Source of the DNA: Lactobacillus sp. UCMA15818
GTDB lineage: Bacteria > Bacillota > Bacilli > Lactobacillales > Lactobacillaceae
DNA length: 64,000 bases
Direction: 5' to 3'
Assembly: GCF_030400225.1 (NCBI RefSeq)
Contig: NZ_VJYB01000002.1
Span: 190,207 to 254,206, forward strand
In this document: in pieces, positions 56,463 through 60,102 of the stretch
Layout of the letters: every line of letters starts with the position of its first letter
Position numbering within the stretch: position 1 is the stretch's first letter
Position numbers and translations under genes: made by a program
The notes under the pieces: generated by a model
Told to the model about the DNA's origin: nothing
The model's input: the letters and a program-made list of their open reading frames with translations, nothing else
Database searches by the model: none

Positions 56463-57246
56463 CTAAAAATTTAAGAATGAAGAGTATCTATCAGCTATAT
56501 CAGACTTTTGACTGTTAGTAATTGCTGTATAGATATCCAAGGTAGTTTGAATATTTCTATGCCCAAGCTGATGTTGCAACTGCTTTACGTCCAAGCCAGC
56601 TTCATAGGCTATTGTGGCATATGTGTGCCTGAAACCATGAATGGTTATCCTTTTAAGATTATATTCATCAGTTACTCGTAACATCCACAGACGTGGCTTA
56701 ACTGGTTGATACATATTATTAAAAGTACTTTGGAATACTAGTTGAGTAGGTGGTTGAGTATAACCTCTTTGAAGTAGCCAACTCTTTTGTTCTTTTTTCC
56801 AGTCTTCTAATATGCTAATAGTTTTTCTATCAAGCCACACAGTTCTCATAGACTCGCTAGTTTTAGCTGTTTGTACATTTATACCATCTTTACCTCTAGA
56901 TTGTGTCTTAGTTATAGAAACAGTCATCTCTTTGAAATGTATATCACTCCATGTTAGAGCTAAGAGCTCACCTTTTCTCATTCCACTGAAAGCTACTAAC
57001 CTGAAGAATGTATATACCTTAAAATCAGAACTCTCATATACACACTGGAGAAATTTTTGTAATTTCTCTTTGGTATAGTTCAAGTGCAAATGTGACTCCA
57101 TACGTGAAAGAATGACATTCTCACACGGATTATCAGTAATGCAGTGCCCGCGACCCCCGCATAGCATATTGAAAGATTAAGCTAGTGGCATTAAGAAACC
57201 TCTTATAGTTCTTTTTGAATATAATCATACTAACATCATTTAAGCG
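56463..57246 (-). pseudogene. Tyrosine recombinase (phage-type integrase), disrupted
   Basis: The catalytic domain is open (56463-57138). Its residues are all visible: Arg in SGMRKGELLAL, HGFRHTYAT, the His of LGHRNIQTT and the Tyr in LDIYTAI. The N-terminal half is broken. Upstream of ITDNPCENV the integrase-like sequence (KNYKRFLNATSLIFQYAMR) is in another frame, implying a frameshift near 57140-57165, and a stop codon interrupts it further upstream (near 57262). The longest open frame starts with MLCGGRGHC, which does not look like integrase. The position beside tRNA-Gln fits an element that integrated there. Confidence 0.8.
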
Positions 57247-57673: not shown

Positions 57674-57841
57674 TTGAATCCAAAAACCTTACTAAAACTT
57701 GGAATAACACTATACACGTTCATAAAAGCTGCTATAGAGTTTTTCGATAAAAACAAAGATGAACTACAAAAAGTAGCTCAAGTTGTAGCTAAAATGTATC
57801 AATTTGCAGCTAAAAAAGTCATAAAGAAGCGATTAATATAA
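57674..57841 (+). CDS. Hypothetical small basic protein
   Basis: A 55-residue frame with a TTG start behind GGGGGAGA (57661-57668). It opens MNPKTLLKLGITLYTFIKAAIEF and ends KKVIKKRLI, giving an amphipathic, basic, helix-rich protein. It is 25 bases downstream of the previous gene, so probably the same operon. No family recognised. Confidence 0.5.
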   Translation: MNPKTLLKLGITLYTFIKAAIEFFDKNKDELQKVAQVVAKMYQFAAKKVIKKRLI

Positions 57842-57850
57842 CCTAATTGC

Positions 57851-57958
57851 AAACAAATAGACCCTCAGAGAGTTAAGTCTGAGAGTCCATGAGTGATGTG
57901 GATTGATTAAGTCCACTTTTTAGGTGAAAAACCTTGACAAGTTTTAAACCTTAAGTCT
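57851..57958 (-). ncRNA. Predicted antisense antitoxin RNA
   Basis: A minus-strand promoter is read as TAGACA (57993-57988) and TAATAT (57970-57965) with a 17-base spacer, so the RNA would start near 57958. The first 37 bases are complementary to repeat copy 1 and, by the shared blocks, to the toxin mRNA around its ribosome site and start codon. A hairpin GTGGA/TCCAC (57898-57916) follows, then a terminator-like hairpin at 57860-57887 with a TATTTGTTTG tail on this strand. Predicted length about 105-110 nt. Confidence 0.55.
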
Positions 57959-57962
57959 AGCT
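57922..57962 (+). repeat. Direct repeat copy 1 (antitoxin side)
   Basis: Shares the ordered blocks AGGTGAAA, CCTTGA, AGTTTT and CTTAAGTCTA with the second copy at 58061-58095. This copy has no open frame behind it: its CCTTGA is followed by a stop after six codons. Confidence 0.85.
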
Positions 57963-57980
57963 ATATATTATCATTCTCTA

Positions 57981-58007
57981 TTAACATTGTCTAGTGTCTG
58001 CTATACT
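57981..58007 (+). promoter_or_regulatory. Predicted promoter of the small toxin mRNA
   Basis: An extended -10, TGCTATACT, ends at 58007. A weak -35 (TTAACA at 57981, or TATTAA at 57979) lies upstream. It is back-to-back with the minus-strand promoter at 57965-57993. The leader holds a small hairpin AAGGT/ACCTT at about 58026-58040. Confidence 0.5.
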
Positions 58008-58060
58008 AACTATTGGCTACAACACAAGGTTGATTACCTTTAGTAAAGTTGTATGCTGAG

Positions 58061-58095
58061 AGGTGAAAGCCTTGATAGTTTTCTTAAGTCTAACT
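58061..58095 (+). repeat. Direct repeat copy 2 (toxin translation start)
   Basis: Contains AGGTG of the ribosome site, the TTG start and codons 2-8 of the small peptide gene. Matches copy 1 at 57922-57962 in four blocks. Confidence 0.85.
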
Positions 58096-58155
58096 ACTGA
58101 ATTAGTAATCAAACTAGTTATTATTTATCTGGTTTTGAGTGCTAATAAGAGGTAG
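58072..58155 (+). CDS. Predicted type I toxin peptide (27 aa, single hydrophobic span)
   Basis: A TTG start lies six bases after GAGAGGTG (58058-58065). The peptide has a hydrophobic stretch of about 20 residues (IVFLSLTTEL then VIKLVIIYLVL), with one Glu and one Lys four residues apart, and a polar basic end SANKR. Size and shape are those of type I toxins that insert in the membrane. It does not match Fst/Ldr or TxpA peptides that I can recall. A strong terminator follows four bases after the stop. Its initiation region is complementary to the predicted antisense RNA. Confidence 0.55.
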   Translation: MIVFLSLTTELVIKLVIIYLVLSANKR

Positions 58156-58158
58156 TTC

Positions 58159-58195
58159 ATTAAGCGCTAGGGTATTTTATCCTAGTGCTTTTTTA
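58159..58195 (+). terminator. Terminator of the toxin mRNA
   Basis: AAGCGCTAGG (58162-58171) pairs with CCTAGTGCTT (58181-58190) with one G-T pair, followed by TTTT. Confidence 0.85.
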
Positions 58196-58303
58196 ATCTA
58201 TTTTCAATTCATAATACTTCTTTACATTTTCTTCTCATTTTTACTCCTATTTAGCATTCTTTTTTGCTGCCTTTTTAAAAATTCAGGATTTTGTCCTCCC
58301 GTA

Positions 58304-59465: not shown

Positions 59466-59493
59466 TTGGTTTCCATACGTATGGTATTATAGT
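59466..59493 (+). promoter_or_regulatory. hicA promoter with operator palindrome
   Basis: CCATACGTATGG at 59473-59484 is a perfect 12-bp palindrome between TTGGTT (59466) and TATAGT (59488). It is the natural place for a HicB operator. Confidence 0.55.
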
Positions 59494-59515
59494 GGCTGTA
59501 AGGAGAAACAATGCT

Positions 59516-59695
59516 GTGACGATGAAAACGAGGGATTTTGTGAAACTGATTAAGACAAATGATTTTAAAAAGGTTTCGCAAACTGGTTTTCAGGCTAAGT
59601 TCGTTAAAGACGATAAAACGGCAATTTTCCCAATGTACGCAAGAGAGTTACCAAAAGGCATTGAATATTCCGTGAGAAAACAAGCAGGGCTTTGA
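59516..59695 (+). CDS. hicA: HicA-like toxin, probably inactive
   Basis: A 59-residue HicA-fold protein: MKTRDFVKLIKTNDFKK at the start and ELPKGIEYSVRKQAGL at the end match HicA. The catalytic histidine of the G-S-H motif is missing; the equivalent stretch reads TGFQAKF. AGGAGA at 59501-59506 suits GTG 59516; ATG 59522 is an alternative. Its stop overlaps the ATG of the hicB remnant (TGATG), the normal hicAB coupling. Confidence 0.7.
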   Translation: MTMKTRDFVKLIKTNDFKKVSQTGFQAKFVKDDKTAIFPMYARELPKGIEYSVRKQAGL

Positions 59696-60102
59696 TGAGT
59701 CTTGTTTTGTATCCTTGATTTTAGAAAGGAGCTCATAATAAGGAAGATAATGCATGGGAAGTTTCATTCGCTAATTTTCCTGAAGCAATAACATTCGGTG
59801 AGACACCAGCTGATGCTTATAAGTATGGGAAAGTAGCTTTAATTTTGGCTTTAGATGGTAAAACTAACTTTCCTGGACCAGCGAAACTAAGGAATAATGT
59901 CGAGATTGATTCACAGAAATATGATGACTCTTTTCAACTTCCTTTTGAAGTTTCTAAATCTGAAATAAAGGGTTCTGTTAAATACGAAACGGTTAAGAAA
60001 AACACAACCATTCCAAAGTATTTGGCTGATGAAGCAGCTAAACGAAACATTAACTTTAGTCAAATATTAACAGAAGCTTTGAAAGAAAAGCTAGAAGTTT
60101 AG
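59695..60102 (+). pseudogene. hicB: HicB-like antitoxin with in-frame stop codons
   Basis: From ATG 59695 the frame reads MSLVLYP, then TGA (59716) and TAG (59722). It continues in the same frame as a recognisable HicB: KEDNAWEVSFANFPEAITFGETPADAYKYGK, and a C-terminal ribbon-helix-helix (TTIPKYLADEAAKRNINFSQILTEAL). Two nonsense codons near the N-terminus break the antitoxin. A shorter frame from TTG 59845 lacks a ribosome site but would keep the DNA-binding part. Confidence 0.75.

Follow-up and report, generated by a model that had tools for sequence, protein, structure and literature searches.

The window analysed here is a stretch of 64,000 nucleotides of Lactobacillus sp. UCMA15818 (contig NZ_VJYB01000002.1, positions 190,207 to 254,206; G000:C12:190207-254206), and the locus under study, at window positions 57851-58195, contains a frame for a short hydrophobic peptide on the plus strand and, upstream of it on the minus strand, the predicted gene of a small antisense RNA, an arrangement suggestive of a divergent type I toxin-antitoxin module. 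From left to right, the following features can be recognized:

57851-57958, minus strand: predicted antisense (antitoxin) RNA, ~100 nt, its ends placed by promoter and terminator
57857-57890, minus strand: intrinsic-terminator-like hairpin of the antisense RNA, 13 pairs with a T-rich tail, aligned across loci
57898-57916, minus strand: second conserved hairpin of the antisense RNA, with a GTGGA/TCCAC stem (alignment, consensus fold, folding)
57922-57963, minus strand: copy 1 of a repeat, 5' pairing region of the antisense RNA, 33 of 36 aligned positions identical to copy 2
57965-57973, minus strand: extended -10 of the antisense promoter, TGATAATAT, pattern in 17 of 20 loci, with a -35-like TAGACA at 57988-57993
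57999-58007, plus strand: extended -10 of the toxin promoter, TGCTATACT, pattern in 20 of 20 loci
58014-58058, plus strand: 5' stem-loop of the toxin mRNA leader (folding and covariation)
58058-58065, plus strand: Shine-Dalgarno region, GAGAGGTG, seen in the sequence and kept in the alignment
58061-58096, plus strand: copy 2 of the repeat, antisense target, from the ribosome-binding site to codon 8 (duplex prediction, local alignment)
58072-58155, plus strand: hydrophobic peptide of 27 aa, putative toxin, MIVFLSLTTELVIKLVIIYLVLSANKR, TTG start, one of a family of 15 intact frames
58162-58190, plus strand: intrinsic-terminator-like hairpin of the toxin mRNA, 13 pairs followed by a T run

When the left part of the locus (57851-57990) is compared with the right (57991-58200), the best local match is that between the two repeat copies, with a score of 23 that none of 2,000 dinucleotide shuffles reached (mean 12.6, maximum 22). 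Copy 1 is non-coding, its two start codons in 57915-57939 giving frames of just 7 and 6 codons, and the second, upstream copy of the translation-initiation region claimed in the original prediction is thereby borne out. The antisense 5' end was also rightly expected to be complementary to the toxin start region: the cognate duplex in the window is predicted at -39.7 kcal/mol, and the complementarity holds across related loci, where copy 2 spans the stretch from the ribosome-binding site to about codon 10. A predicted RNA gene complementary to the toxin mRNA thus lies adjacent to it, and the mRNA encodes a short hydrophobic peptide, as in type I systems.

This matching is specific to each locus. 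Among 18 loci from two genera, cognate duplexes have a mean predicted energy of -35.8 kcal/mol versus -19.4 kcal/mol for non-cognate combinations, and the cognate sum was reached by none of 100,000 permutations; the 16 Liquorilactobacillus loci alone give -35.7 and -19.3 kcal/mol. For these comparisons the near-identical loci L006, L007, L008, L014 and L015 were excluded from alignments A2-A4, L016 (broken toxin) from A4 and the duplex matrix, and L092 (a near copy of L091) from the 18-locus matrix. The genome that contains the window carries three intact pairs, two in tandem at C12:335945-337109 besides the one in the window, whose cognate energies (-39.7, -41.7 and -28.6 kcal/mol) stand apart from the non-cognate ones (-16.3 to -24.4 kcal/mol), so that the three are separable by predicted duplex energy. 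Moreover, copy 1 is closer to the copy 2 of its own locus (mean local score 17.5) than to the copy 1 of other loci (9.4), although a dead duplicate would be expected to resemble the latter, and this indicates that the copies evolve together; copy 2 scores 14.5 on average against the copy 2 of other loci.

Copies more alike within a locus than between loci are also what gene conversion would give, or a relic of duplication, with no functional minus-strand RNA involved. Recombination between repeats, which deletes both promoters, does occur: fused loci lacking the inter-repeat stretch and both promoters are seen at L018/L030, L035 (twice), L143, L168 and L170. Selection for pairing is expected to favour changes that keep a G-U pair, a bias that conversion alone would not give, and within-locus transitions keep rather than break such a pair by 23 to 5 in 18 loci (binomial p 0.0009) and by 16 to 4 in the 13 intact loci (p 0.012; small numbers, loci related), as against 145 to 116 in non-cognate comparisons. 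Together with the minus-strand promoter conserved in 17 of 20 loci, the conserved two-hairpin RNA and the existence of antisense-only loci, this makes repeats without a working antisense RNA a very improbable explanation.

The extended -10 TGNTANNNT occupies a constant position upstream of the leader, on the plus strand in 20 of 20 loci and on the minus strand in 17 of 20, and its antisense version is lost only in L002, L026 and L029, all three with an inactivated toxin. In the window, the minus-strand site extends from 57993 to 57965 (TAGACA, 17 nt, TAATAT preceded by TG) in a promoter scan, which performs at chance level here since promoter-like sites in the region are not commoner than in shuffles (10 vs 12.3); the back-to-back promoters proposed earlier are therefore upheld by conservation across loci and not by the scan. 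Terminator-like sites, on the other hand, exceed the shuffles (5 vs 0.8), and the hairpin terminator anticipated for the minus-strand RNA is present, with 13 pairs at 57890-57857. The antisense RNA, conserved among 17 aligned loci, has a minimum free energy of -34.2 kcal/mol in the window (z -5.48 against 200 shuffles) and a consensus fold of 12 pairs in two conserved hairpins, four of the pairs being changed on both sides. No Rfam model matched at the locus.

On the other strand, substitution patterns argue that the peptide frame is a real gene under purifying selection: the proportion of nonsynonymous differences (pN) is below that of synonymous ones (pS) in all 66 pairs of 12 Liquorilactobacillus loci (pS 0.62, pN 0.30; pairs not independent), a test that took in L026 despite its lost ribosome-binding site, and also in 3 of 3 Ligilactobacillus pairs. 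Family members have 24-29 residues with a polar or basic end, and a 17-residue stretch with a mean hydropathy of 2.3-2.5 in the nine peptides tested; the window peptide has a best 17-residue hydropathy of 2.29 and a net charge of +2. Its frame of 27 codons from TTG 58072 had been correctly picked out, ribosome-binding site included (GAGAGGTG, 58058-58065), as had its terminator (the 13-pair hairpin at 58162-58190), which lies six bases after the stop and not four as claimed. Searches of Pfam, NCBIfam and PHROGs gave no match over cut-off for 9, 9 and 5 peptides, respectively (best PHROG expectation value (E) 0.029), and neither did the Fst model; no sequence relation to any family in the three databases was found, consistent with the initial impression of a peptide outside familiar families.

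Folded by themselves, all 19 toxin mRNA leaders (including L034, excluded from leader alignment A5) form a predicted outer stem; 94.8% of its cells are paired, both partners have changed in five of its pairs, and none of 500 shuffles attained its covariation score (16 loci). A stretch of the leader (ATTACC...) could base-pair with the Shine-Dalgarno, as 90.8% of cells allow, and this pairing is no more than plausible as a regulatory step.

Family loci are ~340 bp long. Among 100 genomes searched at the DNA level, 10 gave a match, every one of them Liquorilactobacillus, and the leader pattern occurs in nine stretches on contigs of Liquorilactobacillus satsumensis, uvarum, oeni, sucicola and mali, which makes this almost certainly the genus of the window DNA too. 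When each half was searched with its own profile, 12 of 14 Liquorilactobacillus genomes proved to keep a whole or decayed copy (none in G002 and G011). The 34 antisense and 28 toxin matches in these 14 genomes were sorted by reading the sequences into 21 separate pairs, four fused loci, nine antisense-only places (L028, L031, L032, L042, L045, L070, L145, L146 and L147) and three toxin pieces without antisense, the latter being 3' fragments lacking the leader and ribosome-binding site. Twelve of the 21 pairs have an intact frame and ribosome-binding site, and nine are dead, through frameshift (L002, L010, L029), loss of the ribosome-binding site (L007, L008, L014, L015), breakage (L016) or alteration at the end (L034). 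An antisense gene stands beside every intact toxin, in 12 of 12 cases in Liquorilactobacillus and 3 of 3 in Ligilactobacillus. Four of the stand-alone antisense halves were tested for pairing, and L045 is predicted to pair at -37.0 with the L004 toxin and L145 at -32.4 with that of L001, in each case from another species.

One hydrophobic stretch with a basic end fits many membrane microproteins, and the toxicity of the peptide is putative; the antisense RNA might then set the amount of a non-toxic regulatory or housekeeping protein. Such a role is unlikely given how often the frame is inactivated while its antisense half survives (9 of 21 pairs, and nine antisense-only places), the presence of an antisense gene at all 15 intact toxins, the several copies per genome, and the association with plasmids, an integrase and type II toxin-antitoxin genes. 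Homologous loci in which the repeats are conserved and the peptide frame is not had been named beforehand as evidence that would tell against a type I pair; intact loci show the opposite (pN < pS in 66 of 66 pairs), and elsewhere the pattern is partly seen, in the dead pairs and antisense-only places just listed, a picture to be expected of a toxin-antitoxin locus in decay.

The same layout is found in two Ligilactobacillus genomes (L091 and L092, E 5.8e-6 and 3.8e-5 with profile R2) and, by DNA search, on plasmid pLAC2 of L. acidipiscis ACA-DC 1533 (L169), the peptides being MNLSITISFPIGFFILLCLAVYNLTKRK (L091) and MDISITISFPLSCFILLCIAVYNLTKRK (L169), to be compared with MDISITLSASLVIQLFIICLIFSNNKK of L. 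oeni (L004). The fused form occurs at L168 and, on another L. acidipiscis plasmid, at L170, and L161 and L166 are antisense-only; six of 26 Ligilactobacillus genomes matched, G413 and G323 weakly. Among 397 genomes of the family, profile R2 matched 22 at E <= 0.1 (10 Liquorilactobacillus, 2 Ligilactobacillus and 10 others at E 0.02-0.08), and four of the others were examined and set aside as not showing the two repeats and the layout (L093, L094, L096, L098). Profile R1 matched 19 of the 397 genomes, 12 of them Liquorilactobacillus, and did not find the Ligilactobacillus loci; six of its seven other matches (E 0.007-0.09) were examined and proved to be terminators or unrelated sequence. Profile R3 matched only the window genome among 325 genomes of the order. 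The spread of the family thus looks narrow in profile scans whose stricter filters, with few candidates scored per genome, may miss distant relatives. Outside the genus, a DNA search with L013 matched mainly the toxin terminator and was discarded, and 14 of 15 plasmid records—all but L. mali NZ_CP045036—were judged chance matches (6-10% of the query, E 0.3-4). The phage collection gave no convincing match (146 records, best E 4, short matches only), viral contigs held 0 stretches with the leader pattern, and the PLSDB annotation table, which is incomplete, lists no gene at the positions of the L. mali and L. acidipiscis matches.

Divergent type I pairs include ShoB/OhsC and Zor/Orz of E. coli, which share the layout of this locus and differ from it in being enterobacterial and in their short complementarity, and the layout is best known from Gram-negative bacteria. 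In the portions available of two publications, TisB/IstR-1 of E. coli and TimP/TimR of Salmonella likewise combine a hydrophobic peptide with a divergent antisense RNA that is not transcribed from the toxin's own opposite strand (PMC4147584, PMC8167048). The present pair is divergent as TisB/IstR-1 is, but its ~36 positions of complementarity cover the ribosome-binding site and first codons rather than lying at a distant standby site, and a crude half-site check gave no sign of LexA control of the toxin promoter. In Gram-positive bacteria, all type I pairs described up to 2014 overlap at their 3' ends according to the part available of a review (PMC4147584), and most do according to that of a 2021 publication, where TimP/TimR is divergent (PMC8167048). 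TxpA/RatA and BsrG/SR4 of Bacillus, also small hydrophobic peptides with an antisense RNA, overlap at their 3' ends in the former source (PMC4147584), unlike the pair described here. No divergent Gram-positive case appears in the available portions of PMC6563280, PMC8309996, PMC10832526 and PMC12390103, and the open-licence literature gave only Fst-type Lpt as a lactobacillus type I system, the 2010 type I survey and T1TAdb, which may list the family, lying outside its scope. Given the 3'-overlap layout in the reviews and the lack of any family match, this looks like a new toxin family with a layout new or rare in Gram-positives.

A further parallel is drawn with par/Fst (Enterococcus pAD1) and Lpt (Lactobacillus rhamnosus), Gram-positive systems of plasmids and islands in which, as far as the source text was available, direct repeats at the ribosome-binding site block translation start, a 5' stem-loop sequesters the Shine-Dalgarno and the repeats are poorly conserved between sister loci (PMC7472228), all as is seen or predicted here. 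Since Lactobacillus has Fst-type systems, the family could in principle be an Fst/par member with rearranged genes. The par genes converge on a bidirectional terminator that they share, and Fst carries a PXXXG motif (PMC7472228, same portion), whereas here the genes are divergent, with back-to-back rather than convergent promoters and two separate terminators, and PXXXG is found in 0 of 15 peptides. PF13955 gave no match over cut-off in 14 genomes, its weak matches all lying away from family loci; the test is weak, given a model of 21 positions and the lack of any match over cut-off in its 14 control genomes too. On both the domain and motif and the convergent layout, membership of Fst/par is rejected, and we regard it as extremely improbable. 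A different frame, of 30 codons (MYMFNSLFAPLAVALITAWFTDWLKRKHRT) followed by a terminator-like hairpin, lies at L144 717-809 on the minus strand (G008:C40) and looks by eye like an Fst/Ldr-type toxin.

We assign a probability of roughly 0.82 to the locus being a divergent type I toxin-antitoxin module, composed of a toxin peptide mRNA and a dedicated antisense RNA. The original prediction of such a pair is supported, each of its sequence-level parts—promoters, complementarity, peptide and island—holding across related loci. The neighbours of the modules also fit it: MazE/PemK at the tandem pair (0.7 kb away), HicA at the window copy and the prgP/prgO partition genes near the copy on L. mali plasmid NZ_CP045036. 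The plus-strand mRNA would carry the short membrane peptide, and the minus strand would give a short RNA whose first ~40 bases are the reversed second copy of the ribosome-binding site and first codons; as the two RNAs share no template, their complementarity would exist only because the repeat is carried twice. Pairing over ~36 positions would block ribosome loading and probably trigger cleavage of the duplex, possibly by RNase III. The 5' stem-loop of the leader may protect the mRNA end, and pairing of part of the leader with the Shine-Dalgarno may cause fresh mRNA to be read slowly. On loss of the locus, a presumably labile antisense RNA would be the first to disappear, leaving the peptide free to damage the membrane, and plasmids or islands would thereby be stabilized.

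Several observations weigh against this interpretation or parts of it. The cognate partner does not always rank first (it does so for 12 of the 16 antisense RNAs and for 12 of the 16 targets), and the antisense RNA of L026, where the ribosome-binding site is deleted, prefers other targets (cognate rank 8 of 16); gene conversion (concerted evolution) between the copies could also account for part of the matching. When the ribosome-binding region is added to the fold, the leader stem stays in 14 of 19 leaders and the fold changes in five (L001, L013, L020, L029, L092), and covariation between the leader and Shine-Dalgarno was not found. The antisense half persists without the peptide. In L007, L008, L014 and L015 (near-identical, plasmid-type) and plasmid L026 the ribosome-binding site is lost, so that the L. 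mali plasmid module cannot act as an addiction system now. Finally, a crude check found no LexA-like GAAC half-site in 57850-58200 and one GTTC, and hence no SOS switch of the TisB kind.

It seems fairly probable that these loci form a Gram-positive family of divergent, non-overlapping type I modules with its own peptide family, in which the second copy of the start region is a specificity part that diversifies with its target, sister modules within one genome are mutually insulated, and decayed copies leave solo antisense RNAs as possible protection against incoming relatives of the module. Because their peptides and RNAs are short and go unannotated, type I pairs are difficult to detect; locus-by-locus matching of two repeats provides a way of searching that requires no prior knowledge of the toxin. 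Confirmation would mean that the divergent layout is not confined to enterobacteria, and the family would then offer natural matched and mismatched antisense-target sets for studying the evolution of RNA specificity and for asking if antisense RNAs left as orphans confer immunity to addiction.

The lactobacillus island setting proposed at the outset is supported by a frame with a phage-integrase domain (Pfam domain search) at 56463-57167 on the minus strand, ~0.7 kb from the locus, and a HicA toxin domain frame at 59492-59695 on the plus strand, 1.3 kb from it. Genes for tRNA-Glu and tRNA-Gln precede the locus, and no repeat of the tRNA-Gln end that could mark an att site was found in the window with exact 14-mers. 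At 59492-60102 (plus strand) a second frame, whose CcdA-like match is below threshold, comes after the HicA-domain frame, giving the island a type II system too. Immediately ahead of the antisense terminator, at 57674-57841 on the plus strand, lies a 55-codon frame with a lysine-rich end and GGGGGAGA upstream, which has no Pfam match over cut-off. Beside the tandem pair (L173 264-4234, G000:C12), a SecB-domain frame, three HTH frames and the MazE/PemK pair form a cluster that may include a toxin-antitoxin-chaperone system.
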